From: Aestuariivirga litoralis
Lineage (GTDB): Bacteria > Pseudomonadota > Alphaproteobacteria > Rhizobiales > Aestuariivirgaceae
Assembly: GCF_015714715.1 (NCBI RefSeq)
Contig: NZ_WAHS01000002.1
Coordinates: 248,001-312,000 of the forward strand
DNA length: 64,000 bases
Reading direction: 5' to 3'
The notes under the pieces: generated by a model
Database searches by the model: none
What the model was told of the DNA's origin: nothing
What the model saw: only the letters and a program-made list of their open reading frames with translations
Position numbers and translations under genes: made by a program
Shown here: in pieces, positions 24,826-46,577 of the stretch
Position numbering within the stretch: position 1 is the first letter of the stretch
Layout: every line of letters starts with the position of its first letter

Positions 24826-24851
24826 CTAACATACCTTTCGAGAAATAATTT

Positions 24852-26602: not shown

Positions 26603-26662
26603 ACAATTGCTCCCGCTCGGCATGGCCCCAGGGAGCCAGGGCCATGCCTGCTGTGGTGGCCC

Positions 26663-27934: not shown

Positions 27935-27980
27935 GTCTTCCTCCCATGATTGGCAGCAACTCAGGATGAGTCCCACCTTA

Positions 27981-29120: not shown

Positions 29121-29252
29121 CAAGCCGCTGACGGATATTTGACAGTACACTGACAAATTCCTCAATGACGAAAAGGTAAGGCGTTAACAGGCTTATTTAC
29201 AGTTCCGGGCAAGTGCGCGCCCTCACTCTTGCTCCGTCATAAGGAGCAGAAA

Positions 29253-30068
29253 ATGCAAGTCAGTTCGAGCAGCCGGTCGCAACTCTATCAACTTCTCAGC
29301 CAGAGAAACAAAGCCATCCTCGAGATGGCGCAAAGCATCCAGGCCGGAAATATCGGCACAGCACAACAGGCCCTCGGCCAGGTGCAGCAGGCCGATCAGT
29401 CGCTCGGCATTGATGACACTACTAGCAGCAGCTCATCGTCGCCTGTGTCAGCCAGCGCCGGACTCAGCAGCATGAAGACCGATCTCACCGCGATGATGTC
29501 AGCCGTGCAGTCGGGGGATCTCGCCAGCGCGCAAACCGCCTGGAGTCAGATGCAATCCGACATGGCGCAAGGCATGAAGCCACACGGCCCGCCGCCCCCG
29601 CACGGCCCACCACCTACCGACAAGAACTCTGACGACAGCAGCACAGACACAGCGACCAACGACCTGACGTCGCTGCTCAATGCGGTTCAGTCGGGTGATA
29701 CCGACAGCATGAAGACATCGGCCACCGCCTTCGCCAAGGATCTCGAAAGCCTGCTCGGCACATCGTCAAGCACCGATCAAACGTCAAGCACATCAAGCAC
29801 CGGCAATCCGCTGATTGATGATCTAAAGGCACTGATCAAAGCCGCACAATCTGGCGATACCACATCCGCACAGGCGGCTGAGCAGAAGCTGCAGCAGGAT
29901 ATGCATGACACTGAGCAAGCATCAGGCACTGAACACGCGCATCACCATCATCACGGCGGCCCACCACCGCCCGCTGCCACCGCCAGCAGCCAGACCACAT
30001 CGGCAAGCACGGCGGCAACGCTTCTGTCAGCTGAAGCGACCGCCACCAGCGCTGAAACCACCAGCTAA
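29253..30068 (+). CDS. Four-repeat, Ser/Thr- and His/Pro-rich protein of unknown function (271 aa)
   Basis: AAGGAG six bases before the ATG at 29253 sets the start. I see no signal peptide. Four helical repeats of about 28 residues lie at 22-50, 78-106, 138-166 and 191-219, each with a core like AVQSGD followed by an Ala/Gln-rich stretch (SAVQSGDLASAQTAWSQMQ; NAVQSGDTDSMKTSA). Linkers are low-complexity: Ser-rich (58-67), HGPPPPHGPPP (111-121) and HAHHHHHGGPPPP (228-240). Similar uncharacterised repeat proteins occur in other proteobacteria (recalled, not searched). The His-rich linker might bind metal. It is a single gene whose stop is 3 bases from the convergent BKACE gene. Confidence 0.75.
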   Translation: MQVSSSSRSQLYQLLSQRNKAILEMAQSIQAGNIGTAQQALGQVQQADQSLGIDDTTSSSSSSPVSASAGLSSMKTDLTAMMSAVQSGDLASAQTAWSQMQSDMAQGMKPHGPPPPHGPPPTDKNSDDSSTDTATNDLTSLLNAVQSGDTDSMKTSATAFAKDLESLLGTSSSTDQTSSTSSTGNPLIDDLKALIKAAQSGDTTSAQAAEQKLQQDMHDTEQASGTEHAHHHHHGGPPPPAATASSQTTSASTAATLLSAEATATSAETTS

Positions 30069-30071
30069 ACT

Positions 30072-30905
30072 CTATTGTCTGAGCGGCAGGCCCAGCACAG
30101 CGCGGGCCTGCTGCCACGTCGCTACTGGCCGCTCGTACTTTTCGCAAAGCTCCACCGCGCGCTTCACTAAAGCGGCATTGGAAGGTGCCAGCGTGTTCTT
30201 GTCGAAGCGCACATTGTCTTCCATGCCTGTCCGCGTATGGCCATCCTTCTTGATGCACCATTCATTGATCAGGATTTGCGCCGGGCCAATGCCCGCCGCG
30301 CACCATTGTGCATCAGGTGAAAGCCGCTTGAGAGTCTCGATATAGAAATCAAAAATCGGCTCATCCGCCGGCATGGCATTTTTCACGCCCATCACGAATT
30401 GCACATAGAGCGGGCCTTTCAGCCGCCCATCCTTCTGCATGATCGAAGCCTGCACGATGTGCGAGAGATCAAAACATTCCAGCTCCGGCTTCACATCATA
30501 GGCCAGCATTTCAGACGCCAGCCAATCCACCAGATCAGGCGGGTTCTCATAAACCCGTGTCGGGAAATTATTGGAGCCCACCGTCAGCGAGGCCATATCA
30601 GGCCTTAACGGAAGCATCCCCCCGCGCGCCTTTCCCGCCCCAGAACGCCCACCGGTTGAAAGCTGCACGATCATGCCGGGGCAATGTTTCTCCAGCCCTT
30701 CCTTAAGCCGCGCAAACCGCTCCGGATCGGATGTCGGCTTGCCCTCATCATCGCGCACATGGCAATGCGCAATGCTCGCCCCCGCTTCAAACGCCGCCTG
30801 CGTGCTTTCGATCTGCTCGGCAATGGTAATCGGCACCGCCGGGTTGTTCGCCTTGGTCGGCAGCGAACCAGTGATCGCCACGCAGATGATGCAGGGATCG
30901 CTCAT
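30072..30905 (-). CDS. BKACE (DUF849) beta-keto acid cleavage enzyme, copy 1
   Basis: The start at 30905 (MSDPCIICVAITGSLPTKAN) overlaps the dioxygenase stop by ATGA. The 277-residue TIM-barrel protein has the zinc-binding HxH pair at His47 and His49 (IAHCHVRDDEGKPTSD) and VQLSTGGRSGAGKARG. Family members condense a beta-keto acid with acetyl-CoA and split it into acetoacetate and a CoA ester. Directly after hydroxyquinol dioxygenase and with maleylacetate reductase in the operon, 3-oxoadipate is the obvious candidate substrate, giving succinyl-CoA. That assignment is inference. It is the last gene of the aromatic operon. Confidence 0.85.
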   Translation of the reverse strand: MSDPCIICVAITGSLPTKANNPAVPITIAEQIESTQAAFEAGASIAHCHVRDDEGKPTSDPERFARLKEGLEKHCPGMIVQLSTGGRSGAGKARGGMLPLRPDMASLTVGSNNFPTRVYENPPDLVDWLASEMLAYDVKPELECFDLSHIVQASIMQKDGRLKGPLYVQFVMGVKNAMPADEPIFDFYIETLKRLSPDAQWCAAGIGPAQILINEWCIKKDGHTRTGMEDNVRFDKNTLAPSNAALVKRAVELCEKYERPVATWQQARAVLGLPLRQ

Positions 30906-31834
30906 TTCTTTTCTTTGCTCAGAACGAAATTCCATTCCACGCTCTTGAATGGGTTGGGCATGCCCAGCTCCGCCGCCTTCTTCGCGTCATTCACATCCTT
31001 GAAATCCGCGATCAGGCTTTCCTTCACGCCGAACACCGCATCGTCCTTCAGCCACGGGCAATCGGGCGTGAAAATATGCGTGGTCACCGTTTCATAACCG
31101 GGCGCAGAAACGATGAAATGCAAATGCGCCGGGCGGTTGGGGTTGCGGTCCAGCGCCTTCAGCATGTCACCCACCGAGCCATCATAAGGAATGGGATAGA
31201 ATTTCGGATAGGCCGAGCGGAAATAATACCGCCCCTTGTCATCAGACTCAAACACGCCGCGCAGATTCATGTCGGGCTGCACGCCCTTCTGCTGCACGTC
31301 ATAGAAGCCATCTTCATTGGCCTGCCACACATCAAGCTTGGCTCCAGGAATAGGCCTGCGCTTGCTGTCCAGCACGCGGCCATGCACCCAGACCGGTGCG
31401 CCCTTGCCATCAAGACAAATGTTTGCACCATTCGGATAATGCGGCGCGTTGGCAATATAGAAAGGTCCCAAAACCGTGCTCTCAGTCTCACCCGACATCT
31501 TGGAGTGGTTGAGGCTTTCCACCAGCATCGAAACACCCAGCGTGTCCGACAGCAAAATGAATTCCTGTCGCCAGTCGGTGGAAAGATGCCCGGTGCGCGT
31601 CAGAAAATTGATGCCATACATCCACTCATTCATCGAGGGCCGCGCTTCCTTGATGAAAGCATGCAGATGCTTGACCAGCGTATCGGTCAGATACTTCACC
31701 CGCTTGTCGGCCTTTGGACCGCTGCGATCCTGGACCACCTTCACGGAATCTTTCACCGTGAAATAATAGCTCATCTTGCGCGCCGGCTTCTTGGCAGGCC
31801 TTTTCTTCGCAACTTTCTTCGCAGCCTTGGCCAT
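30902..31834 (-). CDS. Intradiol ring-cleavage dioxygenase, hydroxyquinol 1,2-dioxygenase type
   Basis: The start at 31834 (MAKAAKKVAKKRP) is the first ATG; the codon at 31840 is TTG. The 310-residue protein has a helical N-terminal dimer domain, then GPFYIANAPHYPNGANICLD and the non-haem Fe(III) ligands Tyr178 (DGFYDVQ), Tyr213 (FYPIPYDG), His237 and His239 (RPAHLHFIV). This is the hydroxyquinol/chlorocatechol branch, which cleaves between two ring hydroxyls to give maleylacetate or a muconate. The maleylacetate reductase in the operon supports hydroxyquinol. An odd 22-residue lysine/arginine-rich N-terminal tail precedes the normal start of the family. Confidence 0.88.
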   Translation of the reverse strand: MAKAAKKVAKKRPAKKPARKMSYYFTVKDSVKVVQDRSGPKADKRVKYLTDTLVKHLHAFIKEARPSMNEWMYGINFLTRTGHLSTDWRQEFILLSDTLGVSMLVESLNHSKMSGETESTVLGPFYIANAPHYPNGANICLDGKGAPVWVHGRVLDSKRRPIPGAKLDVWQANEDGFYDVQQKGVQPDMNLRGVFESDDKGRYYFRSAYPKFYPIPYDGSVGDMLKALDRNPNRPAHLHFIVSAPGYETVTTHIFTPDCPWLKDDAVFGVKESLIADFKDVNDAKKAAELGMPNPFKSVEWNFVLSKEKK

Positions 31835-31836
31835 GA

Positions 31837-33591
31837 TCAATGCCCCAGAATTTTCTTGAGCGCAGCGCCGAGATCTTTCTCTGCACTCTTGCTCGCATTC
31901 ATCGCGCGCCAGCCCACATGATGATCAGGCCGCACCAGCAGGCAGCCGCCATCGCTGATCTCGCGCATCCGCGCCCAGTCACCGGCATGGTCTTCGAAAT
32001 CACGCCGCGGTCCAATCACCCGCGTGACCAGATCCAGCTTCATCTCAGCGGCTAGTTTCTTCGCTGCATCAACCCAAGCCTCACCACCAATGCCGGTGAT
32101 TAGCGTGAATGTGCCATGCCCGCACAAATCCAGCGTCGAATGTTGCTTGCCCAAACTGTCAAACACCCAGACATGCGGCAACCGCGCGCCCGGCCAGGTG
32201 GTCGGCGCGTAATGCAGCTCCTTGTCTTTTTCGAAAGCCGGTTCCTTCTGCCCATCGGTCACCGCAGCGGAAGACACATAGCGCTGGTTCATCTCCACGC
32301 CGTGGCAGTCGAATTCATATTTCTTGAATTCAATTGCCTTGCGCAGCGCCTCGCGCTGCTTCTCAGCCGCAGGCGTGGCATCACAACGCGCATCCATGTT
32401 GCGCTGGATCTTGCCATGGTCCACGCCGCCATCCATGCCCAAGGCTTCAAAGATCGGCCCGAATTCGGCAATCGATTGATTGGCCCGCGTCACGATCTGC
32501 TTGGCAATCGGCGCACGCTCGACGGAATAGGAATCCAGCAACTTCGGCGTCGCCTGCCCCTTGATCACCGCCGCCAGTTTCCACGCGAGATTAAACGCGT
32601 CCTGAATCGATGTGTTGGAGCCCAAGCCGTTAGACGGCGGATGCCGATGCGCCGCATCGCCCATGATGAACACGCGGTCTTTCTGCATGTGCGTGGCATA
32701 CATGTTGTTCACCGTCCATACGCTGGCCGAGATCAGATCAATCTCCAGCGCTGGGTCGCCCACCAATTGTCGCGCCACTTGCGTGGCCATCGCCGCATCC
32801 ACCTTCGGCGGCGGCTGGTTGATGTCATAGCCCCACACAATCAGCCATTCATTCCACGGCCGTACCATGCGTACCAAGCCCATGCCAATGCCGCCCACAT
32901 CAGCACCGGGCTGCATCACCCAGTAAAGCACCGAGGGCCGGTGCGCGACATATTTGGAAAGATCAGCACGGAACAGAATGTTCATCGAGCCGCCTACGCC
33001 CATCTTGCCTTCGAAAGGCAGCTTCTCCGCTTCCGCCACCAGCGAATTGCCGCCATCGGCCCCCACCAGATATTTGCAAGCGACTGTGAAATCCTTGCCG
33101 GTCAACCGGTCCTTGACGGTGGCAACAACGCCATCCTTGTCTTGAACATGCGAGAGATATTCGCACGACATGCGCGACTGCGATCCGCGCGAACCCGCCG
33201 TCTTGAACAACAGCGGCTCCATGAAAGTCTGCGGTAGATCATTCATGTGGCAGGGCGAAGAGAGATAATGCTCGGCGCGCGACAGCGCACCCTTGCCCCA
33301 GCTTTTCATCCGCCCCAGTTCTTCACCGGCGAGTGAAACGCAAAACACATTCTCGCCCATCAAATCCTGCTCGGTGGCCTGCATGTAAGCTTCGTCTTCC
33401 ACCTCGCGGCCCAGGTCGCGCAGCACTTCCATCGTGCGCTGATTGGTGATGTGCGCGCGCGGCGTAGTGGCCAGCCAGCGATAGCGGTTGATGATCAGAT
33501 TATCGATGCCGTAGGACGCCAGCAGCGCCGCCGTCGCCGAACCCGCCGGGCCGGTGCCCACGATCAACACATCTGTGGTAATATCCGCCAT
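31837..33591 (-). CDS. FAD-dependent aromatic hydroxylase (PheA/TfdB family)
   Basis: A 584-residue flavoprotein monooxygenase. FAD-binding VLIVGTGPAGSATAALLASY, NAD(P)H/FAD DG-type motif YLVGADGGNSLVAE, and GDAAHRHPPSNGLGSNTSIQ, followed by a thioredoxin-like C-terminal domain. Enzymes of this group ortho-hydroxylate phenols, chlorophenols or resorcinols using NAD(P)H and oxygen. Before a hydroxyquinol dioxygenase the expected reaction is resorcinol-type substrate to hydroxyquinol (inference). GGGAG lies just before the ATG, and the stop is 2 bases from the dioxygenase start. Confidence 0.88.
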   Translation of the reverse strand: MADITTDVLIVGTGPAGSATAALLASYGIDNLIINRYRWLATTPRAHITNQRTMEVLRDLGREVEDEAYMQATEQDLMGENVFCVSLAGEELGRMKSWGKGALSRAEHYLSSPCHMNDLPQTFMEPLLFKTAGSRGSQSRMSCEYLSHVQDKDGVVATVKDRLTGKDFTVACKYLVGADGGNSLVAEAEKLPFEGKMGVGGSMNILFRADLSKYVAHRPSVLYWVMQPGADVGGIGMGLVRMVRPWNEWLIVWGYDINQPPPKVDAAMATQVARQLVGDPALEIDLISASVWTVNNMYATHMQKDRVFIMGDAAHRHPPSNGLGSNTSIQDAFNLAWKLAAVIKGQATPKLLDSYSVERAPIAKQIVTRANQSIAEFGPIFEALGMDGGVDHGKIQRNMDARCDATPAAEKQREALRKAIEFKKYEFDCHGVEMNQRYVSSAAVTDGQKEPAFEKDKELHYAPTTWPGARLPHVWVFDSLGKQHSTLDLCGHGTFTLITGIGGEAWVDAAKKLAAEMKLDLVTRVIGPRRDFEDHAGDWARMREISDGGCLLVRPDHHVGWRAMNASKSAEKDLGAALKKILGH

Positions 33592-33602
33592 TGAAATTCT
33601 CC

Positions 33603-34634
33603 CTATTCAGCGGGTCTTCGCCCGTCATATGCATTCTGTAAAAGCTGCCGCAGCGCCGCGCGCTCCAAAGGCTTCGGATTGGGATAGGGTGCCGCCACTG
33701 CCATGTCGGCCGCCTTGTCCAATCCATCCTCCGGCATCCCCAATTCCTTCAGCGAAGTAGGCGCATTCAAATTCTTGGCCAAATCAAAAAGCCCCGCCGC
33801 CGCAGACTTGGCATTCAGCGCACGCGCAATGCGCAGCATAGCATCCGGCGCAGCAGACGCGTTGTAAGCCGTGGCCTGTGGCAGAACCACCGTGTGCGTT
33901 TCCGAATGCGGCAGATTGAACGTTCCGCCGAGCACATGGCAAAGCTTGTGATGCAGCGCCATCGAAACACTGCCCAGCACTGTGCCGCACAGCCACGCAC
34001 CATAAAGCGCCTTCTCGGTATCACCTGCCGGCAAGGCCGCAGCCAAAGCCACAATCCCCTCTTCCGCCATCAGCGCAATAATCGGATTGCCATCCACCGC
34101 ATAAAGCCCTTCCACCGCATGGGCGATAGCATTCATGCCGGAAGTCGCCGCCATCAGCGGCGGCAGCGTGCCGACAAGATCAGGATCATAAATCACCGTC
34201 TCCGGCTGGATCTTCGCATCACGCTTGGTGGTCTTCGTCCCCGCCGCCGTTTCGCCTAGGATGTTCGTCATCTCGGAACCCGCAAAGGTCGTCGGCAAAC
34301 ACAGCTGCGCGCAATCGGTACGTAGAGCAATCGCCTTGCCCAGCCCGATGGCAGAACCGCCACCCAGCGCGATCACGCCATCAGCGCCTTCAGATTTGAA
34401 AACTGCAAGCGCCGTATCCGTCACATCGACGGGCGTATGCATCTTCGCCCCGTCCCAATGCGGCCAGCCGTTTTGCGCAGCCAGAGCCTTGCCCAAAGCC
34501 GATTGCTGCTTGCCGGTAATCACCAGCGGCCGCTTCAGCCCCAGCCGCTCAGCCCCCGCCTTCACAGCCTGTTGCTTGCCGCGCCCAAAGATCACGCGCG
34601 TCGGCAGGGCCTGATAAATGAAGGGCTGGATCAT
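33603..34634 (-). CDS. Maleylacetate reductase (iron-containing alcohol dehydrogenase superfamily)
   Basis: A 343-residue protein beginning MIQPFIYQALPTRVIFGRGK, typical of maleylacetate reductases. The dinucleotide site is VIALGGGSAIGLGKAIAL, then LPTTFAGSEMTNILGETAAG. Metal-site or active-site histidines lie in NAIAHAVEGLYA and in SMALHHKLCHVLGG. The enzyme reduces maleylacetate from hydroxyquinol cleavage to 3-oxoadipate with NAD(P)H. It stands between the second BKACE and the aromatic hydroxylase in the operon, 11 bases from the latter. Confidence 0.92.
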   Translation of the reverse strand: MIQPFIYQALPTRVIFGRGKQQAVKAGAERLGLKRPLVITGKQQSALGKALAAQNGWPHWDGAKMHTPVDVTDTALAVFKSEGADGVIALGGGSAIGLGKAIALRTDCAQLCLPTTFAGSEMTNILGETAAGTKTTKRDAKIQPETVIYDPDLVGTLPPLMAATSGMNAIAHAVEGLYAVDGNPIIALMAEEGIVALAAALPAGDTEKALYGAWLCGTVLGSVSMALHHKLCHVLGGTFNLPHSETHTVVLPQATAYNASAAPDAMLRIARALNAKSAAAGLFDLAKNLNAPTSLKELGMPEDGLDKAADMAVAAPYPNPKPLERAALRQLLQNAYDGRRPAE

Positions 34635-34635
34635 T

Positions 34636-35565
34636 CTAGAAGCCTACCCTGTCTCCGCCCTTCAGCGCCAGAATTTCACGCGCTTCCTGCGGCGTGGCAA
34701 TTTCCAGCCCCAGCTCTTCAACAATCGTCCGGATCTTACGCACTTGCTCGGCATTGCTGGTGGCCAGCTTGCCCTTGCCGATATAGAGCGAATCCTCCAG
34801 CCCCACGCGCACATTGCCGCCCATCATTGCGGCCTGCGTGCAAAACGCCATCTGGTTCTTGCCCGCAGCGAGCACCGACCATTGGTAATCCTTGCCGAAC
34901 AACTTGTCGGCGGTTTCCTTCATGAACATCAGATTGCGCATGTCAGCGCCGATGCCGCCCAAGATGCCGAAAATCATCTGCACAAAGAACGGCGGCTTCA
35001 CCAATCCCTTGTCCACGAAATACGCAAGGTTATAGAGATGCCCCACATCATAGCATTCATGCTCGAACCGCGTGCCATGCGCCTCGCCGAGGTCTTTCAG
35101 GATGCGGGTAATATCCTTGAAGGTGTTGCGGAAGATGAAATCATCGGTGCCGCGCAGATACGCTTCTTCCCATTCATGCTTCCATTCTTTGTAACGGTCG
35201 GCCAAACCGAAAATGCCGAAATTCATTGAGCCCATATTCAGCGAACACATTTCTGGCTTGGCCTGTAGCGGCGCAGCGAGACGCTGCTCCACACTCATGT
35301 TCAACCCGCCACCCGTGGTGATGTTGATCACCGCATCGCAATTCTGCTTGATGCGCGGCAGAAACTGCATGAACACATCTGGGTCTGGCGTGGGCTTGCC
35401 GGTTTGCGGGTCACGCGCATGCAAGTGAATGATTGCAGCACCAGCTTTCGCCGCATCGATGGATGCAGTGGCGATTTCATCCGGCGTCACCGGCAAATGC
35501 GGCGACATGGTGGGCGTGTGAATGCCACCGGTGATCGCCACGGAAATGATAACTTTGCCTGCCAT
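34636..35565 (-). CDS. BKACE (DUF849) beta-keto acid cleavage enzyme, copy 2
   Basis: A 309-residue protein beginning MAGKVIISVAITGGIHTPTM with the zinc-binding pair His47/His49 in IIHLHARDPQTGKPTPDPDV, and NITTGGGLNMSVEQRL. AAGGAG precedes the ATG. It differs clearly from the copy at 30072 and is longer, so the two probably have different beta-keto substrates. It is the first enzyme gene after the LivM permease and lies 1 base before maleylacetate reductase. The known chemistry is acetyl-CoA plus beta-keto acid to acetoacetate plus an acyl-CoA. The actual substrate is open (3-oxoadipate, 3,5-dioxohexanoate or a similar acid). Confidence 0.87.
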   Translation of the reverse strand: MAGKVIISVAITGGIHTPTMSPHLPVTPDEIATASIDAAKAGAAIIHLHARDPQTGKPTPDPDVFMQFLPRIKQNCDAVINITTGGGLNMSVEQRLAAPLQAKPEMCSLNMGSMNFGIFGLADRYKEWKHEWEEAYLRGTDDFIFRNTFKDITRILKDLGEAHGTRFEHECYDVGHLYNLAYFVDKGLVKPPFFVQMIFGILGGIGADMRNLMFMKETADKLFGKDYQWSVLAAGKNQMAFCTQAAMMGGNVRVGLEDSLYIGKGKLATSNAEQVRKIRTIVEELGLEIATPQEAREILALKGGDRVGF

Positions 35566-35568
35566 GTT

Positions 35569-36573
35569 CTACTCCTTCGAAACGACGCGGTAACCCGTCG
35601 GGAACAGTGAAAGCCCGAAACGGTTTTTGATAAAGCCCCAGATACCCTGCGGCGCCAGCAGCATGATGGCAATCGCCAGCGCCCCCAAAATCATTAGATA
35701 GATGCTGCCCAGATCAGCGAGGAATTCGCGCAGTAGGAAATAGATGATCGTGCCAATGATCGGCCCTTCGATGGTGCCGATGCCGCCGATCACCACGATG
35801 AAAATCACAAAGGCCGTCCAGTCATTCACGCTGAAAGCGGCATCGGGCGACATGCGCACCTTCTGCAATTCGATCAGGCAGCCAATCATCGCGGTCAACC
35901 CCGCCACCAGAACATAAACCGCAAACTTCACTCGCTCGATGCGGATGCCAAGACTGACTGAAGCCGTTTCATTGTCACGGATGGCAGTGAGCGCCAGCCC
36001 CACGCGTGAGCGCAGCAGAGCGTACACAATCACCACCGCACCCACGCCCAGCGCCAGTGCCAACCAATAGATCGTCGCCTCGCGCCAGAATTTTGATTCA
36101 CCCAGCAGCTTCATCGTGGCAGCGGGAAGACTGATACCGGAGCCGCCACCGAGAACCGCAATCTGCGCGCACAGCAGCCGGAACACTTCCGCCACCACCC
36201 AGGTGCCGATCGCGAAATAAGCGCCCTGCAAACGGAACACCAGCATCGCCACAGGCACCGCAATCAGCGCCGCCGCAATTCCCGCGACTGGCACGGCCAG
36301 CAGCGGATGCCAACCCGCTAGCAGCGCCAGAGAAATCAGAATGTAAGCGCCAAAGCCCACATAGGCCTGCTGCCCGACTGAGACGAGTCCAGTATAGCCA
36401 GCCAGCAAATTCCACAAAGTCGCCAGCGCCATATAGATCATGAATTCGCCAAGCAACCGCTCGGTCGCAATCGATCCCCACCACGGCGCAGCTACCAGCG
36501 CCGCCGCAACAGCAATCGCAACCATCCCGGCAATACGCGAGGCGCGGGTGGACCGTGAAATCATCTCGGCCAT
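35569..36573 (-). CDS. livM: Branched-chain-type ABC transporter permease LivM
   Basis: The start at 36573 (MAEMISRSTRASRIAGMVAI) shares a base with the LivH stop (TGATG); the longer reading only shadows LivH. The 334-residue protein has about eight to ten membrane helices and the HAAT-family motif LALTAIRDNETASVSLGIRI, then FVIFIVVIGGIGTIEGPIIG. It has a plain LivM without a fused ATPase. In this operon it probably imports an aromatic acid or acylated phenol, not an amino acid. Confidence 0.9.
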   Translation of the reverse strand: MAEMISRSTRASRIAGMVAIAVAAALVAAPWWGSIATERLLGEFMIYMALATLWNLLAGYTGLVSVGQQAYVGFGAYILISLALLAGWHPLLAVPVAGIAAALIAVPVAMLVFRLQGAYFAIGTWVVAEVFRLLCAQIAVLGGGSGISLPAATMKLLGESKFWREATIYWLALALGVGAVVIVYALLRSRVGLALTAIRDNETASVSLGIRIERVKFAVYVLVAGLTAMIGCLIELQKVRMSPDAAFSVNDWTAFVIFIVVIGGIGTIEGPIIGTIIYFLLREFLADLGSIYLMILGALAIAIMLLAPQGIWGFIKNRFGLSLFPTGYRVVSKE

Positions 36574-37436
36574 CAATTCATCCTCGGGAACAGGCCGCGC
36601 GGCCTGAAAGCCAGCACGAGGAGAAACGCAATATGCCCGGCCAGCACTTGCCAGCCCGGATCGATCTCGGCGCCGATACCCTGCGCCACGCCGAGGATCA
36701 CGCCGCCCACCAGCGTGCCCCACAGATTGCCCAGCCCGCCGATGATCACCGCTTCAAACCCAAAGATCAAACGCCCCGGCCCCATGAACGGATCAAAGTT
36801 GGAACGGATGGCGAGGAACACACCGGCCAGTGCCACCACCGCCATGCACAGCGCCATCGCAGCAGCATAGACCTTGCGATTATCGAGGCCCATCAGCAAA
36901 GCCACTTCCTTGTCGTCGCTGGTGGCGCGGAAGGCGCGGCCTAGAGAAGTGCGGTAGAACATATATTGCAACCCCGCGATCACCGCGACGGAAGTGGCAA
37001 ACATCAGCAGCGGAAAATGTCCGAGCGACACGCCGGGCAGCAGCGAAAAACTCGCCGTCTCCAGCGCACCCGCATCCAGCTTGCGGCTGTCGGCGGTAAA
37101 GATTTGCAGCAATCCATTTTGCAAAATCACCGACAATCCAAAAGAAACCAACAGCGGCGGCAGAATATCCTTGCCCAGCGTGTGATTGAAAATCACCATC
37201 TGCAAAACATAGCCGAACACAGCCGCAATCGGGATCACCAGCACCAGGCTCACCAGCGGGTTCAAACCCGTCGCATGCACGATGCTCCACGCCAGATACG
37301 AACCCGCCACAATGAAATCGCCATGCGCAATATTCACCAGCCGCATCACGCCGAAAATCAGTGACAGGCCGGCCGCGAACAAAGCATAAAGCCCGCCGAC
37401 CAGAATCCCCTGCATGATGGCGTTGATCCAATCCAT
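36573..37436 (-). CDS. livH: Branched-chain-type ABC transporter permease LivH
   Basis: The start at 37436 (MDWINAIMQGILVGGLYALF) follows the LivF stop by 4 bases. The 287-residue protein shows about eight helices with FAAGLSLIFGVMRLVNIAHG near the N-terminus and RATSDDKEVALLMGLDNRKV and IIGGLGNLWGTLVGGVILGV further on. These are LivH hallmarks. It forms the transmembrane pore with LivM. Confidence 0.9.
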   Translation of the reverse strand: MDWINAIMQGILVGGLYALFAAGLSLIFGVMRLVNIAHGDFIVAGSYLAWSIVHATGLNPLVSLVLVIPIAAVFGYVLQMVIFNHTLGKDILPPLLVSFGLSVILQNGLLQIFTADSRKLDAGALETASFSLLPGVSLGHFPLLMFATSVAVIAGLQYMFYRTSLGRAFRATSDDKEVALLMGLDNRKVYAAAMALCMAVVALAGVFLAIRSNFDPFMGPGRLIFGFEAVIIGGLGNLWGTLVGGVILGVAQGIGAEIDPGWQVLAGHIAFLLVLAFRPRGLFPRMN

Positions 37437-37440
37437 GCCT

Positions 37441-38145
37441 TCAGGTCCCGAAATAGGCGCGCGTAATCGCCTCGCGCGAATGGGCCGCAGGTTCCCCCGC
37501 CAATGACACATGGCCTTCTTGCAGGCAAAGAAACCGCGAGGCTGAATTCAGCGCGCGCGTCACATCCTGCTCCACCAGAATGGCCGAAAGCCCGCCACCA
37601 GTGATGCGTGGCAGAAGATCGTAAATGTCCTTGATCACGATGGGCGCCAGGCCCAGGCTCAATTCATCCAGCAGCAGCAGTTCAGGATTCGACATCAGCG
37701 CGCGCCCAATCGCCACCATCTGCTGTTGCCCGCCAGACAGCGAGGTGGAAGGTTGATGCCGCTTCTCTTTCAAAATGGGAAACAACCCATAGATCGCCGC
37801 CAGATTCCACTCACCATTGCGCGCCACCTTGCCGCCGAGCACCAGATTCTCTTCCACCGAAAGCGAAGGAAACAATCGCCGCCCCTCCGGCACCAAAGCA
37901 ATGCCGCGCTTCACAATCTCATTGCCCGGCAGCCGCGAAATATCTTCGCCCTTGAAACTGATGTGCCCCTGCGTGTCAGCCACCAGCCCGCAGATCGATT
38001 TCAGCAGTGTGGATTTCCCCGCACCATTTGCCCCGATCAATGCCAGTGTCTCGCCCTTGGCAACGCTGAACGACACGCCATGCAGCGCCTTGGCGCCACC
38101 ATAGGCCGCTTTGAGGTCGTCAATCGCCAGCAGCACCTCAGGCAT
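37441..38145 (-). CDS. livF: Branched-chain-type ABC transporter ATPase LivF
   Basis: Three in-frame starts exist (GTG 38157, ATG 38151, ATG 38145). The last is chosen because GAGGA lies 5 bases upstream of it. The 234-residue ATPase has Walker A GANGAGKSTLLKSICGL, signature STSLSGGQQQMVAIGRALMS, Walker B LLLLDELSLGLAPIV and ILVEQDVTRAL. It follows LivG directly. Confidence 0.9.
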   Translation of the reverse strand: MPEVLLAIDDLKAAYGGAKALHGVSFSVAKGETLALIGANGAGKSTLLKSICGLVADTQGHISFKGEDISRLPGNEIVKRGIALVPEGRRLFPSLSVEENLVLGGKVARNGEWNLAAIYGLFPILKEKRHQPSTSLSGGQQQMVAIGRALMSNPELLLLDELSLGLAPIVIKDIYDLLPRITGGGLSAILVEQDVTRALNSASRFLCLQEGHVSLAGEPAAHSREAITRAYFGT

Positions 38146-38857
38146 GCGCATCCTCACCCAGATAAACGGATTTCACTTCGCGGCTGTTCATCACCTCATG
38201 CGGCACGCCATCCACGATCAGCTTGCCGAAATTTAGCACCACTAATCGTTGCGCTACCGACAAAAGTGCATGCACCACATGCTCGATCCACACGATAGTC
38301 ACGCCCGACGCATGCACATCCTTGATGGCCGCCAGCAAGGCCGCGCATTCACTATCGGTCAGCCCACCCGCGATTTCATCGAGCAGCAACAATTTCGGAT
38401 TGGCCGCCAGCGCCCGCGCCAGTTCCAGCCGCTTGCGGTCCAGCAGCGTAAGCCCGCCAGCCAATGTATTCGCCTTGGCCTTCATGCCGGTCTGTTCCAG
38501 CACAGCAAGCGCACGCGCCTCAGGATCTTTCGGTTCGCGCCCGAATGTGGCGCCCACCAGAACATTTTCAAACACGCTCATGCCATTGAACGGCTGCGGC
38601 ACCTGGAACGAGCGCGAGATACCCATGCGGCAACGCTCCGATGCGCCGAGTGCAGAAATATCAGCACCCTCGAATTGCACATTGCCCGCATCAGGCCGCA
38701 CAGTTCCAGCGATCAGATTGAACAGCGTAGTCTTGCCCGCACCATTGGGGCCGAGAATGCCGAGGATTTCGCCCTTGCCCACGTCAAGGCTCACCGCGTC
38801 GGTCACCACCAGCGCGCCGTATTTTTTCGAGAGAGACGAGAGCGAAAGCAAAGTCAT
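38138..38857 (-). CDS. livG: Branched-chain-type ABC transporter ATPase LivG
   Basis: A 239-residue ATPase. Walker A GPNGAGKTTLFNLIAGTVRP, the long LivG helical insert with ISRSFQVPQPFNGMSVFENV, signature-like AGGLTLLDRKRLELARALAA, and Walker B LLLLDEIAGGLTDSE. The signature LSGG is replaced by AGGLT, so the C-loop is divergent. It lies 44 bases after livK, separated by a strong hairpin, and has no good Shine-Dalgarno sequence next to the ATG. Confidence 0.88.
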   Translation of the reverse strand: MTLLSLSSLSKKYGALVVTDAVSLDVGKGEILGILGPNGAGKTTLFNLIAGTVRPDAGNVQFEGADISALGASERCRMGISRSFQVPQPFNGMSVFENVLVGATFGREPKDPEARALAVLEQTGMKAKANTLAGGLTLLDRKRLELARALAANPKLLLLDEIAGGLTDSECAALLAAIKDVHASGVTIVWIEHVVHALLSVAQRLVVLNFGKLIVDGVPHEVMNSREVKSVYLGEDAHA

Positions 38858-38865
38858 GGAAAATC

Positions 38866-38890
38866 AGGGAGGCTGAATCTCAGCCTCCCT
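38866..38890 (-). terminator. Perfect 11-base-pair hairpin between livK and livG (attenuator or mRNA stabiliser)
   Basis: AGGGAGGCTGA and TCAGCCTCCCT pair completely around a 3-base loop. In the minus-strand transcript the stem is followed by GATTTTCC rather than a clean U-run, so it looks like a weak terminator or a 3'-end protector for livK. It lets the binding protein be made in excess over the membrane parts, as is common in ABC operons (inference). It ends 8 bases before the livG start. Confidence 0.7.
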
Positions 38891-38901
38891 TTTCGTTTCT
38901 A

Positions 38902-40170
38902 TCAGTTCAACAATTTCAGCTTGCCGCCGATCGGCACTTGCGGCGCAACCGGATTGGCAACAACGGTGAGTTCATACTTGCCATCCTTGCGCACCCATTG
39001 GCCCCCAGCCAGCGGTGTCTTCGACACATTCTTCACCGGCTTGCCATCCCATTTCACCGGGCCAACAATCGTCTGCAGATCGGTGGCCGCAATCGCTTCA
39101 ATGATCGCCTTCGGATCAGACAAATCCTTCGAACGCTTCACCACATCGAGTGCCACTTCCCAGATCGCATGGCTGAAGCCCAGCGTGGCCGTCCACTGCT
39201 TGCCGGAAGCCTTTTCATAGGAAGATCCCAGATCAGCAGCAGACATGCCAGTCAGGCTGGACTTGTAGGGATAGGTCGGCGTCCACCACACTTCGGTGGT
39301 GAGGCCATCACCACGATCACCCAGCGAGTCCAACGTGGCCGGGAACAGCAGCGCCTTGCCGATGGTCACAACCTTGGGCTTGAAGCCCTGCTGTGCCGCC
39401 TGCGCCCAGAAGGTCGCAAAATCCGGCGGGATCATCACGCCGGTCACGATCTCCACACCCGCCGCCTTGAACGCCGAAATCTGCGCGGAGAAATCATTGT
39501 TCAGCGGCTGGTAGCGGCCGGGGTCCACCAGCTTGTAACCCGCAGCCGTCACCGGGCCGGGCAAGCCATGCTCGGCATCGCCCCAGGCATTGCCATCGGC
39601 GTCGTTCGGGAACAAGCCGCCAACAACTTTCGCCGCACCCGATTGGTCCCAGATGTTGACGAAATTGGCGATGATGTCTTCCAAGCCCCAGAAGAAATGA
39701 TAGGTCCAATCGAAGCCCTTGGCCGGGTCGCCCTTGCGGCCAAAGAAGTAGGGCTGCCACGGGCAATTGGTGGAGATGCAAGGCACGCCCGCCAGTTCGG
39801 CCTGATCAGCCGCCGGGTTGGTCGTGTCCGGCGTATCCTTCGCCAACAACAAATTCACTTGGTCCTTGTTGATCAACTCGGCAGCAACTTCCGCCGCACG
39901 GTTTGGGCTCGATTGCGAATCCTTGGTGATGATTTCAATCTTCACCGGCTTGGCATTGTTCTGCGCACCAGCAACGGCATCCTTGATGCCAGCGAGGATC
40001 CAGTCCTGCGCTTCGCCGAAGCCAGCCAGCGGCCCGGTCAGCGGCGAGACAAGCCCGATCTTGAACGTGTCATCGGCAGCAAAGGCGCGCCCGCGCAGAT
40101 AGGCCGGCACGGCAAGTGCCGCACCAGCGGATTTCAGAAGTGTTCTACGATTGACTTTGTAAAGTGGCAT
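38902..40170 (-). CDS. livK: Branched-chain-type ABC transporter substrate-binding protein LivK, Tat-like signal
   Basis: A 422-residue protein with signal MPLYKVNRRTLLKSAGAALA containing NRRTLLK, a twin-arginine-like motif, and cleavage near GRAFAADD. The mature part starts TFKIGLVSPLTGPLAGFGEA, the Peripla_BP_6 signature. Inside an aromatic operon such proteins usually bind aromatic acids or phenolic compounds. GGGAGG precedes the ATG by a few bases, and a TTTCTAGT direct repeat lies further upstream. Confidence 0.9.
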   Translation of the reverse strand: MPLYKVNRRTLLKSAGAALAVPAYLRGRAFAADDTFKIGLVSPLTGPLAGFGEAQDWILAGIKDAVAGAQNNAKPVKIEIITKDSQSSPNRAAEVAAELINKDQVNLLLAKDTPDTTNPAADQAELAGVPCISTNCPWQPYFFGRKGDPAKGFDWTYHFFWGLEDIIANFVNIWDQSGAAKVVGGLFPNDADGNAWGDAEHGLPGPVTAAGYKLVDPGRYQPLNNDFSAQISAFKAAGVEIVTGVMIPPDFATFWAQAAQQGFKPKVVTIGKALLFPATLDSLGDRGDGLTTEVWWTPTYPYKSSLTGMSAADLGSSYEKASGKQWTATLGFSHAIWEVALDVVKRSKDLSDPKAIIEAIAATDLQTIVGPVKWDGKPVKNVSKTPLAGGQWVRKDGKYELTVVANPVAPQVPIGGKLKLLN

Positions 40171-40195
40171 GGTTTCCTCCCTTAGCCCTTTCTTT

Positions 40196-40223
40196 TTTCT
40201 AGTATGAAAGCTCAGTTTCTAGT
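40196..40223. repeat. TTTCTAGT direct repeat (two copies, 20-base period) upstream of livK
   Basis: TTTCTAGT is present at 40196-40203 and 40216-40223, in the 68-base gap between the PhlG-like gene and livK. The exact 20-base period suggests a protein binding site on one helix face, so livK may have its own controlled promoter in addition to operon read-through. No regulator can be assigned. Confidence 0.4.
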
Positions 40224-40238
40224 CTCCCGCAAGCAACG

Positions 40239-40901
40239 TCAGGCCGCGATATCTCCTGTCACCTGGCGGTACATGATCGGCAAAATCTCGGCGAGATAGG
40301 CCATCTCTTCAGTGCAATGCTGATGCAGCCGCCGCGCCAATTCCGGCGTCACCATCTCCTTGCGCATCGCCAGTTTCTGTTCCTCGCTGAAGGTCTCACC
40401 TTCCACGCGGCTTTCGAAAATCCCAAGGAAAAACCGCGAGCGCATCTCGCAGCCCTGATCAGTGTTGCGCACAAAATGCACCATCTTGCCAAAGTTGATT
40501 GGGTGATCGAGATCACCAATCCGCGCACAGATCGCAGCGCCGGTGAAGTTGCCGTATTGCTTCTTGTCGAAAAATTCCAGCGGGTCGCGGAAATTGATGC
40601 GCAGCTTGTAAACCGGGCCGTCCGGCCCCGCGAGATATTCATGCACCAGATGGCTCGATCCCACATGCGTGCCGGGCACGCGGCCTTCCCAATCGCTGAA
40701 TAGATGATCGACAGGGTGCCACAGCTTGTATTGCTCCGTGCCGCCCAGATAGCGGAACCACCATTCAATCATCTTGGCCTTGCAGCGCGGCATGCGCGCC
40801 AAGGCACACACCGTCTTGAAGCCATCATCATAAGACACAACGCCGGATTCAATCGGCAGATAACCCGGCTTCAATAGATCATTGATTTCTTCATATCGCA
40901 T
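40239..40901 (-). CDS. PhlG/phloretin hydrolase-like C-C bond hydrolase (DAPG hydrolase family)
   Basis: A 220-residue protein with EWWFRYLGGTEQYKLWHPVD, then HLFSDWEG and GSSHLVHEYLAG, MVHFVRNTDQGCEMRSRFFL and RRLHQHCTEEMAYLAEILP. These His/Glu-rich segments are those of the zinc-dependent DAPG hydrolase family, which removes acyl groups from phloroglucinol or phloretin rings by C-C hydrolysis. GGAGGAACAG precedes the ATG. It overlaps the dehydrogenase gene by 11 bases and precedes the transporter. The family assignment is from motifs; the substrate (acylphloroglucinol, acylresorcinol or dihydrochalcone) is inferred. Confidence 0.78.
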   Translation of the reverse strand: MRYEEINDLLKPGYLPIESGVVSYDDGFKTVCALARMPRCKAKMIEWWFRYLGGTEQYKLWHPVDHLFSDWEGRVPGTHVGSSHLVHEYLAGPDGPVYKLRINFRDPLEFFDKKQYGNFTGAAICARIGDLDHPINFGKMVHFVRNTDQGCEMRSRFFLGIFESRVEGETFSEEQKLAMRKEMVTPELARRLHQHCTEEMAYLAEILPIMYRQVTGDIAA

Positions 40902-41808
40902 TCTGTTCCTCCAACAGTGCCGAGATGGCTTTGAGGTGTTCCGTCACCTTCTTGCGCAATTTGTCTTTCTTGGATGTGTCCCAAATCTTGAACCCACGGT
41001 CTGTCTTGAAACCCAGCTGCCCATCAGCAACGAGCTTCTGCAGATAGGGGCTGGGCTGATGCGCATCTTCCAGCGAGGCCAGAACCTGGTTGTGAATATC
41101 AAGCGTCAGATCAGTGCCGACCAGATCAGCATTCTCAATCGGCCCCAGCACAGCTAGCCGACGCCCGAAACTGTTCTTCACCACAAGGTCCACCGTCTCG
41201 GCATCGCACACGCCATGTTCGATCAGCGAAATCGCCTCGCGCCACAAGGCATGCTGCAAGCGGTTGCCCACAAAGCCCGGCACATCTTTCTTCACATGCA
41301 CCGGCACTTTGCCCAGGTCAGCCAGCAGCTTCATCATCCGCGTGACGATGCTGGGCTCCGTCTCTGCCGTTTGAATCACTTCAACCAGCGGCACCAGATA
41401 AGGCGGGTTCCACCAATGCGTGCCCAGCGCGCGCGCTTTGTATTTCACCTTCGCCATCACCTGCGTGATCGGGATGACGGATGTGTTGGAGGCCAGAATG
41501 CATGACATCGAAGCCGCAGCCTCGATCCGCTCAAACAGTGCCTGTTTCAGCTCAAGCTTCTCGGGTGCCGCCTCAACCACCAGTTCGGCTCGCGAAACCG
41601 CATCTTCCAAAGAAGAAGCCGCATGAATCCGGCTTACACAGTCGTCAGTCTTGCCCAGCGAGGCCAGGGTAGCCTTTACGCGTACATGCAAAGAGTCGAG
41701 CGCATCAGCCTGCGGGTCCGTCACCCAAACCTCATGCCCGCCTTGTGCAAACACCAGCGCAAGCCCATGCCCCATCAATCCCGCGCCGATGATCGCCACC
41801 CTCACCAT
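40891..41808 (-). CDS. 3-hydroxyacyl-CoA dehydrogenase-like enzyme, lambda-crystallin/L-carnitine dehydrogenase type
   Basis: A 305-residue NAD-dependent dehydrogenase. Rossmann motif VAIIGAGLMGHGLALVFAQG, active-site LGTHWWNPPYLVPLVEVIQT, and VPGFVGNRLQHALWREAISL. NPPYxxPLVEV is seen in members that act on free 3-hydroxy acids (L-gulonate, L-carnitine), not on CoA esters. With BKACE enzymes in the operon, it probably oxidises a 3-hydroxy acid to a beta-keto acid for cleavage (inference). The start overlaps the esterase stop by 7 bases. Confidence 0.82.
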   Translation of the reverse strand: MVRVAIIGAGLMGHGLALVFAQGGHEVWVTDPQADALDSLHVRVKATLASLGKTDDCVSRIHAASSLEDAVSRAELVVEAAPEKLELKQALFERIEAAASMSCILASNTSVIPITQVMAKVKYKARALGTHWWNPPYLVPLVEVIQTAETEPSIVTRMMKLLADLGKVPVHVKKDVPGFVGNRLQHALWREAISLIEHGVCDAETVDLVVKNSFGRRLAVLGPIENADLVGTDLTLDIHNQVLASLEDAHQPSPYLQKLVADGQLGFKTDRGFKIWDTSKKDKLRKKVTEHLKAISALLEEQNAI

Positions 41809-42440
41809 GGCAACCCCGCACTTTCGGTAAAATGCGTCAGCGTATTTTGCAACACGCTGATTTCGGCTTCACTCACTTCATGCCCGCGCAGGGGGAACAC
41901 ATCTGCGCGAACCCGCGCCCGCGCCGCGCCCAGTTCCTGCACCGCTTCAGAGAACGCCGAAATCGGAATCCAGCTGTCAGCATCAGACCCCGAAATATAA
42001 GCCGGAAGCCCGGTCACATCCTTGGCCGGTCGCTCATCATCAAGTGTGCCCACGCGGCATCCAGTGAAGGCAACAAGCGCACCATTCCACGGTCCGAAAT
42101 GCATCGCATATTCGATCGACAGGCATGCGCCCTGGCTGAAGCCGGCCATCACCACCGGCGTCTTCGCGGGCAATTCCGCTACCAGCGCCCGCAGCACATC
42201 AAGCGAATCCGAAAGCTGTGCCTTCGTTTTCTCCGTCAGCGCATCAACGGCCTTGGCATCATACCAACTCTTGCCCGCCGCGCGCGGCAGCACGAAGGCC
42301 ACGCCGGGCGCATCAAGCCGCCGCAAAATATCATCCTCCATCGCTTCGGGTGATTGCCCGCGGCCATGCGACAGAATGCAGATCACCTTGGCGCTCTCCA
42401 GCGCGTTGCCTTTCAGCACTGCGGCGCCAAGCTTCGTCAT
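41802..42440 (-). CDS. MhqD/YsgR-like alpha/beta hydrolase (carboxylesterase)
   Basis: The start at 42440 (MTKLGAAVLKGNALESAKVI) overlaps the dioxygenase stop by ATGA. The 212-residue protein has nucleophile elbow VVMAGFSQGACLSIEYAM (GFSQG), an acidic segment ISGSDADSWIPISAF and catalytic His in PLRGHEVSEAE. This is the phospholipase/carboxylesterase family. In Bacillus, MhqD is co-regulated with the hydroquinone dioxygenase MhqO, and the same pairing here is direct. It probably hydrolyses an ester or a ring-cleavage product. Confidence 0.8.
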   Translation of the reverse strand: MTKLGAAVLKGNALESAKVICILSHGRGQSPEAMEDDILRRLDAPGVAFVLPRAAGKSWYDAKAVDALTEKTKAQLSDSLDVLRALVAELPAKTPVVMAGFSQGACLSIEYAMHFGPWNGALVAFTGCRVGTLDDERPAKDVTGLPAYISGSDADSWIPISAFSEAVQELGAARARVRADVFPLRGHEVSEAEISVLQNTLTHFTESAGLPW

Positions 42441-43399
42441 GTGTCGAAATTCGCGGCCTCCAGCCCGGCTACCATTTCGGCGCGGCGGTCTTCGAACCAC
42501 GGCGGGAATACCAGCGTCTGGCCTGTGTGGCCCACAGGCTCATCCTTCGCCCAGCCCTCCGGCACCGTCCATGCGATTTCAAACAGCGCACCACCGGGCG
42601 AGCGCACATAGCAAGACTTGAAATAGTTCCGGTCCTTCTGCTCGGAAATATCAGTGAAGCCCAGGCCCTCGATATGCGCGCGCAGCTTCATCTGGTTTTC
42701 TTCATTGCCGGTATTGAGCGCAACATGATGAATGGTGCCGCCAGCAAGTGTCCACGTTCCCTGCGGCGTCGTGTTGTCATGCAAAACTTCAACAACCGAA
42801 GTGAGCCCATTATTTTCCGGCACCGCGAAGGCGAGGCCCTCGTGATTGTCGGCCAGCTTCTTCATTGGAATGGCTATCGTAAAGAAGTCATCCATCGCGG
42901 AACGATCCGCCACCGAAACACCCACACCATAAATGCCCTTGATGCCGTGATCCTTGCCAATGCCCTGCTTGTCATTGGTGATCGACTCGCGCCGGTCACC
43001 GGGATTTTCGACAAGCTCGAAATGAATGCCACACGGATGTTCCAGCGCCACGCGGTTGATGCCGAAGCGCGTTGTCTTTTTGGCTTTCACGCCGCGCTCA
43101 TTGAGCCGGTTCACCCAGAACTCCGAAGCCCCAACCGGAATGGCGGCCTGGATAATCTTGGTTTGGTTGGTGCCGCGCCGGCCAAACACACCGGGCTTGC
43201 GGAACGGGAAGGTTGTGAAGATGGTCGAGGCATCGCCATTCTTCGATCCGTAATACAGGTGATAAACCGGCAGCACGCCGTCAAACAGCACTGTGCGTTT
43301 GACTGAATGCAGCCCCAGCGTCTTGGTGAAGAAGTCGAAATCTTCCTGAGCGCCATCGGTGCTCATGGTCAGGTGATGATAGCCACTGATCAGGCTCAT
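42437..43399 (-). CDS. MhqO/LinE-like ring-cleaving dioxygenase (VOC superfamily)
   Basis: A 320-residue protein of two VOC halves. Half one has SGYHHLTMSTDGAQEDFDFF and CGIHFELVENPGDRRE; half two has GGTIHHVALNTGNEENQMKL and GGALFEIAWTVPEGW. The His and Glu positions give an Fe(II) or Mn(II) site as in extradiol hydroquinone dioxygenases. It probably opens a hydroquinone-type ring or detoxifies quinones. GGAGGAAAGAGC precedes the ATG. It is the first gene of the 14-gene operon and is divergent from a LysR gene. Confidence 0.82.
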   Translation of the reverse strand: MSLISGYHHLTMSTDGAQEDFDFFTKTLGLHSVKRTVLFDGVLPVYHLYYGSKNGDASTIFTTFPFRKPGVFGRRGTNQTKIIQAAIPVGASEFWVNRLNERGVKAKKTTRFGINRVALEHPCGIHFELVENPGDRRESITNDKQGIGKDHGIKGIYGVGVSVADRSAMDDFFTIAIPMKKLADNHEGLAFAVPENNGLTSVVEVLHDNTTPQGTWTLAGGTIHHVALNTGNEENQMKLRAHIEGLGFTDISEQKDRNYFKSCYVRSPGGALFEIAWTVPEGWAKDEPVGHTGQTLVFPPWFEDRRAEMVAGLEAANFDT

Positions 43400-43502: not shown

Positions 43503-43517
43503 ATAACATATCGTTAT
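43503..43517. promoter_or_regulatory. LysR-type inverted repeat ATAAC-N5-GTTAT over the LysR start codon
   Basis: The dyad fits the T-N11-A pattern of LysR boxes and covers the start codon at 43516, so binding would block lysR expression. A second 5-5-5 dyad, AAGCT-N5-AGCTT, lies at 43454-43468, closer to the dioxygenase gene. Assignment to the adjacent LysR protein is inference. Confidence 0.5.
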
Positions 43518-45299: not shown

Positions 45300-45646
45300 G
45301 GCTTCACTCCCGGCGGATAAGGGATCACCACGATCATCTTGCACACCCCATTGGTACGATTGACGATCTCGCGCACTTCGCCCGGCGGAATGGTGCAGCT
45401 GTCCATCGCCTTCAGCACGCTCTCCTGGCCGTCGATGATCACCGTCATCTCACCCTCAAGCACCACATAAACCTTCTCGAACGGCGTCGCGTCAGGCCCC
45501 GCGCCACCACCGGGCAGGAATTGCGAAAATCCAACCCACTGGTTTTTGGGGCCACCCTCTTCAAAGCCCTGCAGACGCAAACCCACCACCCCACGGTGAT
45601 TTGGCGCCTCATAGGGCTTCGCGTCCGCAAAGCGCTTGAGCAGCAT
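45296..45646 (-). CDS. Small cupin-domain protein
   Basis: A 116-residue single-cupin protein. The first cupin motif region reads GPDATPFEKVYVVLEGEMTV and the second PPGEVREIVNRTNGVCKMIV. The usual metal histidines of the first motif are largely missing, so catalytic metal binding is doubtful. It may be an isomerase, a binding protein or a quality-control partner of the neighbouring enzymes. It is coupled to the cyclase gene by TGATG and to the SDR gene by ATGA. Confidence 0.75.
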   Translation of the reverse strand: MLLKRFADAKPYEAPNHRGVVGLRLQGFEEGGPKNQWVGFSQFLPGGGAGPDATPFEKVYVVLEGEMTVIIDGQESVLKAMDSCTIPPGEVREIVNRTNGVCKMIVVIPYPPGVKP

Positions 45647-46485: not shown

Positions 46486-46523
46486 CAGGCGTCCTCCCAG
46501 ACTATGATTTTTGTTTTGTTGGA

Positions 46524-46570: not shown

Positions 46571-46577
46571 CGATGTG

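Follow-up and report, generated by a model that had tools for sequence, protein, structure and literature searches.

Within a window of 64,000 nucleotides of Aestuariivirga litoralis DNA (contig NZ_WAHS01000002.1, positions 248,001 to 312,000; coordinates below are those of the window), 14 minus-strand open reading frames (ORFs), identified by ORF listing and hmmscan, span 30072-43399 and form an array that runs from 43399 to 30072 and whose gene content points to uptake and degradation of phenolic rings. Its junctions range from a 151-base ORF overlap to a 68-base gap; the largest overlap is that of LivH and LivM, where the start of LivM has probably been called too early. From the first gene to the last the order is VOC dioxygenase, esterase, 3HCDH-type dehydrogenase, PhlG-like hydrolase, LivK, LivG, LivF, LivH, LivM, BKACE, Fe-ADH, FAD hydroxylase, intradiol dioxygenase and a second BKACE, with a LysR regulator (43516-44493, plus strand; PF03466) divergent from the array. 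Domain matches are strong, the exceptions in Pfam being the VOC protein and the esterase, both weak; the identity of the former is carried by its PDB match and gene neighbourhood, and that of the latter by gene neighbourhood. Given the strength of the domain matches, and the retention of the order in a relative from the same genus (G021, below), the array is judged to be more than chance. A first-pass annotation of this DNA had described the run of 14 same-strand genes, their families, the divergent LysR and a phenolics-degradation locus with its own importer, and to this extent it is borne out.

Beyond LysR, and outside the range of that annotation, three further genes lie on the array's own strand: an SDR (44505-45344; likely start ATG 45299), a cupin of 116 amino acids (45296-45646; Cupin_2, 46 bits), small enough to be below usual ORF cut-offs, and a PF04199 cyclase (45646-46560; 109 bits; likely start ATG 46485). 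The ATG of the cupin overlaps the stop of the cyclase, and an SDR start at ATG 45299 would span the stop of the cupin. An IclR-family regulator (46575-47333, plus strand; PF01614, 158 bits) diverges from the cyclase.

Opening of the phloroglucinol ring without oxygen is described for Clostridium scatologenes in PMC10470551, with activities measured for an SDR phloroglucinol reductase (PGR), a cyclase-family dihydrophloroglucinol cyclohydrolase (DPGC), a 3HCDH-type triacetate-forming dehydrogenase (TfD) and a BKACE-type triacetate acetoacetate-lyase (TAL). The locus holds all four families and so matches that set by family. Its SDR is the predicted PGR and its cyclase the predicted DPGC; the predicted TfD is the 3HCDH-type ('lambda-crystallin') dehydrogenase (40891-41808; PF02737, 178 bits), and the predicted TAL is the BKACE at 34636-35565, which passes the NCBIfam 3,5-dioxohexanoate model NF053538 (546 bits, cutoff 430). 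The best PDB matches of the SDR are 5g4k and 5g4l (173 bits); the record describes 5g4k as an SDR only, and we take it to be the Clostridium PGR. In the cyclase the stretch HSTTHIDAPAH is a candidate metal motif, picked by eye for what we take to be its likeness to one. Identity to the cyclases of relatives' clusters is 72-86% (36% in locus L036) and to their SDRs 70-77%, and an IclR homologue (43-48% identity) adjoins the cyclase in 17 of 22 cyclase-bearing loci.

Scanning genomes with four aligned PhlG-like proteins as the query yielded 55 loci; the 28 at an identity of at least 53% were kept (L011-L037 and L042) and the 27 more distant dropped. With presence set at a minimum of 60% identity for cyclase and SDR, and of 33% for TfD and TAL, all four reductive genes are found in 19 of the 28 and at least three in 24. 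Locus L031, truncated by a contig end, has two; L018, L021 and L022 have none, and Pfam applied to some neighbours of their PhlG-like genes gave nothing pointing to a substrate. In part of the neighbourhood mapping some genes are undercounted, as any match that overlapped a better one by 60 bases or more was dropped. The spacing of SDR and TfD is 15-126 bases in all 24 relatives that have both, and in relatives the reductive genes exist as a cluster of their own. Tandem PhlG-like genes occur inside otherwise standard reductive clusters in L014 and L017, and a Holophagaceae metagenome-assembled genome (MAG), CTSoil_007, has seven loci (L046, L047, L049, L052, L056, L060, L061) with PhlG-family genes at 26-31% identity.

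The small cupin travels with this module. It is kept at 73-85% identity in 23 of the 28 PhlG loci, being missing from L018, L021 and L022 and from the short contigs L031 and L035, and it is also kept in clusters with no oxidative genes alongside. Relatives at 45-46% adjoin pathway genes in L162, from another class of the phylum, and in L044, a Freyarchaeota MAG. The word cupin is absent from the main text of PMC10470551. The protein is a conserved member of the reductive module and is possibly a missing enzyme of the published pathway. As a separate observation, three loci elsewhere in the order (L160, L161 and L163) pair a cupin relative at 38-42% with an intradiol dioxygenase (40-41%) and with a BKACE (32-33%); L161 also has model matches to a TAL-type BKACE and, under the cutoff, a LacI-type regulator.

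The PhlG-like protein itself (40239-40901) scores 150.9 bits against PF18089 (DAPG_hydrolase; cutoff 22.7). An AlphaFold2 model from a 36-sequence alignment (predicted local distance difference test, pLDDT, 96.3) finds as its best Foldseek matches phloretin hydrolase (5xey and 5xe5; E 3.5e-15 to 5xey) and PhlG (3hwp), and residues H66, E88, H195 and E199 align to chain positions H137, E168, H278 and E282 of 3hwp, which, at a constant offset of 8, are presumably its zinc ligands. Membership of the DAPG hydrolase family, on which the first-pass annotation had staked its reading beforehand, is upheld by the domain, the fold and the metal-site residues. The NCBIfam PhlG equivalog NF047887 is not reached (52.3 bits, cutoff 600); judged by that model the protein is a member of the family and not PhlG proper, and, being so far below the cutoff, it is taken as a family member only, with no acyl specificity assigned. 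In G021 the stretch from TfD to LivK contains no PhlG match, and in a second member of the genus, G036, some 100 bases separate the TfD and LivK matches. PhlG occurs in five of 199 relative genomes, none of them G021, G036 or a third member of the genus, G017 (that G021 and G036 belong to the 199 is presumed). Either the PhlG-like gene and the BKACE at 30072 are extras of the window species or they were lost in others; for PhlG, loss in the genus relatives is favoured because other taxa have it at the same place, before LivK. Hydrolysis of acyl-phenols looks like an accessory entry, since neither G021 nor G036 has a PhlG-like gene at its place.

The other enzymes suggest an oxygen-dependent route. 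For the FAD aromatic hydroxylase (31837-33591), predicted to act on resorcinol-type phenols, the best PDB match is 4cy6 (2-hydroxybiphenyl 3-monooxygenase; 594 bits), a type that also includes 2,4-dichlorophenol 6-monooxygenase. The intradiol dioxygenase (HQdiox; 30902-31840) scores 267 bits to 8r2x (6-chlorohydroxyquinol-1,2-dioxygenase) and 252 to 3n9t, whereas the top catechol enzyme, catechol 1,2-dioxygenase 5umh, reaches 123, in keeping with the hydroxyquinol type first given to it. The Fe-ADH (33603-34634; PF25137), predicted to be a maleylacetate reductase (MAR), is 52% identical to an L066 gene annotated as such, and the last BKACE (30072-30935), of 3-oxoadipate:acetyl-CoA type, passes the 3-oxoadipate model NF053568 (489 bits, cutoff 350). 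A single PcaI/ScoA-family CoA-transferase gene is present in the window genome, which would agree with service of this BKACE on 3-oxoadipate without proving it. The VOC ring-cleavage dioxygenase (42437-43399), of hydroquinone-dioxygenase type (MhqO), is paired with the Abhydrolase_2 esterase (41802-42500; PF02230); its best PDB match is 4huz (2,6-dichloro-p-hydroquinone 1,2-dioxygenase; 220 bits), and the type presumably includes PcpA and LinE. LysR is of oxidative-module type, with 37-52% identity to the LysR of five oxidative clusters and 28% to that of L110.

Matches to the FAD hydroxylase at orthologue level are present in 39 of 397 genomes of the order, the window's own included. In the 38 other neighbourhoods, for which the counts are lower bounds because some are truncated by contig ends and overlapping matches were dropped, HQdiox is found in 35, MAR in 35, LivK in 36, LysR in 29, VOC in 20, the esterase in 18 and a 3-oxoadipate BKACE in four (there 69-79% identical to that of the window and after HQdiox), with PhlG at 40% identity or above in none. 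On pRL12 of Rhizobium johnstonii 3841 the order is LysR, divergent from dioxygenase-MAR-LivKGFHM-FAD hydroxylase-dioxygenase. The VOC-esterase pair is within the oxidative cluster in Martelella and Pararhodobacter, between a dioxygenase and MAR in Agrobacterium tumefaciens LN-1, and after an FAD monooxygenase and before YceI, MAR, thiolase and CoA-transferase genes in Pseudarthrobacter chlorophenolicus; the record for the Variovorax VOC region carries no annotation. The oxidative genes, too, are an independent cluster elsewhere.

What sets the window apart from such separate clusters is the interleaving of the two modules. LysR-VOC-esterase splits the reductive set, and the block TfD-(PhlG)-Liv-TAL sits inside the oxidative gene order. 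TAL, MAR, FAD hydroxylase and HQdiox are together in three of the 38 neighbourhoods, all from the window's genus (G021, G036 and G017). In G021 a divergent IclR precedes cyclase-cupin-SDR, followed by LysR and then by VOC-esterase-TfD-LivKGFHM-TAL-MAR-FAD hydroxylase-HQdiox, with identities to the window of 48% for IclR, 55% for the esterase, 75% for LysR, 85% for the cupin and 90% for VOC. G036 has the window order from TfD to HQdiox, its contig ending inside TfD, and G017 has part of LivM and then TAL-MAR-FAD hydroxylase-HQdiox; the set is complete in G021 apart from PhlG and the BKACE at 30072, and partial in the other two.

A second fusion of this kind is possible. One Rhodobacteraceae MAG contig (L111) carries LysR, divergent from MAR-FAD hydroxylase-HQdiox, and ends inside HQdiox, and another (L013) begins inside HQdiox and, after the end of that gene, continues with IclR, divergent from cyclase-cupin-SDR-TfD-PhlG-LivK-LivG. 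The last 171 bases of L111 and the first 171 of L013 align at 93% and are not identical, which suggests that the two may be adjacent. A single fused cluster inherited by the window species and this MAG was considered and rejected, the nearest relatives being mosaic across genes: in trees made by a quick method, with Shimodaira-Hasegawa-like approximate likelihood ratio test (SH-aLRT) support only, LivK and PhlG go with L013 (99 and 95), the FAD hydroxylase with L111 below the support limit, the cyclase with L033, HQdiox and MAR with L116, and SDR, TfD and TAL with other loci. Six of the 28 PhlG genomes (L030 left out) have the hydroxylase; in the five other than the Rhodobacteraceae MAG, mapping placed no reductive gene next to it. 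Among 385 genomes sampled from the class, four have the cyclase and four the hydroxylase, and the window genome alone is in both sets.

The transporter is made up of the LivK-type binding protein (38902-40170; PF13458), the ATPases LivG (38138-38857) and LivF (37441-38157; both PF00005), and the permeases LivH (36573-37511) and LivM (35569-36723; both PF02653). Window LivK pairs with the LivK of L013 (SH-aLRT 99), and a branch with support of 97 separates it from the LivKs of oxidative clusters and from a second LivK of phloroglucinol clusters; LivH groups with seven phloroglucinol rows at 90, short of the limit. In the LivK and LivH trees the transporters of oxidative clusters form one separate group. 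Derivation of the whole transporter from a phloroglucinol cluster, as a plain statement, was rejected, with LivH support at only 90 and the trees confined to LivK and LivH; a recombination swap at the transporter genes remains conjecture. Between LivK and LivG lies a perfect hairpin (38866-38890), replaced in G021 and G036 by hairpins that differ in sequence, which could fit a single transcript with extra expression of the binding protein. With 7 candidates against 6.5 expected from shuffled sequence, a promoter scan showed no excess.

From these sequences the locus is probably a composite one, in which the reductive route would break down phloroglucinol and the oxidative route a resorcinol-type phenol, both ending at acetoacetate. 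Phloroglucinol would be imported via LivKGFHM, or the PhlG-like hydrolase would free it from an acyl-phloroglucinol; the SDR would reduce it to dihydrophloroglucinol, which the cyclase would open hydrolytically; TfD would oxidize the ring-opened product to triacetate, and the BKACE at 34636 would convert triacetate and acetyl-CoA to acetoacetate and acetoacetyl-CoA. On the oxidative side, the FAD enzyme would turn a resorcinol-type phenol into hydroxyquinol, the intradiol dioxygenase would yield maleylacetate, reduction would give 3-oxoadipate, and the BKACE at 30072 would form succinyl-CoA and acetoacetate from it. The VOC-esterase pair probably provides a second entry by cleavage, and the common transporter and the two regulators may coordinate both routes. 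Flavonoid degradation passes through phloroglucinol (PMC10470551), and isoflavone cleavage by rhizobia reportedly gives resorcinol (PMC11069340); given these origins, plant-derived rings of both kinds could be handled by such a locus. A bolder version is put forward tentatively and is itself doubtful, namely that two chemistries, one hydrolytic-reductive and one O2-dependent, serve one A-ring phenol pool and converge on acetoacetate via paired BKACEs, with the cupin, beside the cyclase from Alphaproteobacteria to the Freyarchaeota MAG, acting in the phloroglucinol pathway as a fifth enzyme not yet described.

Several observations weigh against the composite reading. The lead of the SDR match over other PDB SDRs is modest (173 as against 144 bits), and the protein lacks the TR(S/N) NADPH motif given for PGR in PMC10470551, having TAGKK aligned to TGRNE of 5g4k, which itself lacks that motif letter for letter. 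The predicted TAL shares only 36% identity with the BKACE adjoining PhlG in Clostridium magnum, and in the alignment it has Ile at the position of TAL Trp16 (Glu14 of Kce); among the aligned BKACE rows Trp is there in C. magnum alone. Other residue marks of the C. scatologenes-type pathway are Trp20 and Tyr22 in DPGC and the absence of Lys56 and Asn221 from TfD. A BKACE of G858 that adjoins a PRK06129-type dehydrogenase also exceeds the NF053538 cutoff, so that this model is not pathway-specific. The best solved relative of the FAD hydroxylase is not a resorcinol enzyme. Finally, the G021 locus, otherwise in window order, lacks the BKACE at 30072 and PhlG, and the upstream half is absent from the stretch adjoining the G017 genes.

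Three alternatives have to be set beside it. In catechin-degrading rhizobia, older work had phloroglucinol reduced to dihydrophloroglucinol, which was then dehydrated to resorcinol and passed on to hydroxyquinol, and such a serial route would account for both modules at one locus. Maleylacetate and ketoadipate are among the catechin products of several genera, including Bradyrhizobium and Rhizobium (PMC3877349), and the cupin could in principle supply the missing step. However, the locus has no recognisable dehydratase, it retains the full ring-opening set of cyclase, TfD and TAL, and the cupin is also kept where no oxidative genes adjoin; a serial route is therefore considered improbable.

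Similarly unlikely is the single linear route of the first-pass annotation, in which the PhlG-like enzyme would strip an imported acylated polyphenol of its acyl group, and hydroxylation to hydroxyquinol would lead on to breakdown via maleylacetate and 3-oxoadipate. The PhlG-family fold and metal residues are in its favour, as are the hydroxyquinol-type dioxygenase and the 3-oxoadipate BKACE within the same array, but it leaves unexplained the cyclase, cupin, SDR, 3HCDH dehydrogenase and TAL, although the nearest PhlG-like genes usually have these as partners, and PhlG at 40% identity or above is in none of the 38 oxidative neighbourhoods. The dehydrogenase and the BKACE at 34636 match the reductive pathway, whose other genes lay just outside the range of that annotation, and, as the fused operon of G021 and G036 has no PhlG-like gene at its place, an acylated polyphenol need not be the defining substrate. 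A purely oxidative operon was also tried and rejected, the partners of those PhlG-like genes being reductive-pathway ones. That two functionally unlinked clusters came together by chance of transfer, as might be argued from the patchiness of both modules in the class sample and their separation in other genomes with both (in G151, PhlG and the hydroxylase are some 270 kb apart on one contig), has little probability, for the genes are interleaved with short gaps, not just adjacent, and G021 retains their order despite divergence of the proteins.

Carbohydrate genes flank the array (22255-27976 and 48830-53690), among them sugar ABC transporter parts, GH116, a GH15 glucodextranase, and 6-phosphogluconate-type and glucose-6-phosphate dehydrogenases. 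A Ser/Gln-rich ORF beside the array end (29229-30068, plus strand) has PsbQ and MPH2 Pfam matches barely above the cutoff, possibly an effect of composition.

With regard to known systems, phloroglucinol clusters in alpha-proteobacteria, Mesorhizobium and Bradyrhizobium are already listed in PMC10470551, as are Mycobacterium clusters that include a phloretin hydrolase. A literature search, with most subscription journals outside its reach, found no description of both pathways in one operon and, among the papers listed, none on the oxidative clusters or their substrate. The biochemistry of the reductive route was established in an anaerobe; here the route shares one locus with oxygenase genes, in an arrangement kept in a genus relative, and hydrolytic opening of phloroglucinol alongside O2 use for resorcinol-type rings becomes testable in such bacteria.

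The likeness to the C. scatologenes pathway of PMC10470551 consists of the four common enzyme families. In contrast to that pathway, the window set is split by LysR-VOC-esterase and joined to an oxidative module, its TAL belongs to a different BKACE subgroup, and it is accompanied by a Liv-type ABC importer and by a cupin, both unmentioned in the text of that paper. With PhlG (3hwp) and phloretin hydrolase (5xey and 5xe5) the PhlG-like protein has a common fold and keeps four candidate metal ligands, whereas at 220 amino acids it lacks the N-terminal part, alignments beginning at residues 61-73 of those chains. Oxidative clusters of the form LysR-(HQdiox)-(VOC-esterase)-MAR-LivKGFHM-FAD hydroxylase-HQdiox, as in R. 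johnstonii 3841 pRL12, Martelella and Pararhodobacter, are the counterpart of the other half, with the FAD hydroxylase at 62-74% identity in six loci, MAR at 47-55% and VOC, where present, at 71-75%; unlike the window, 35 of the 38 neighbourhoods in the order are without TAL and all 38 without PhlG, and they usually have a Liv set of their own. Set against these systems, the locus arranges known pathways in a new way and includes a conserved cupin.

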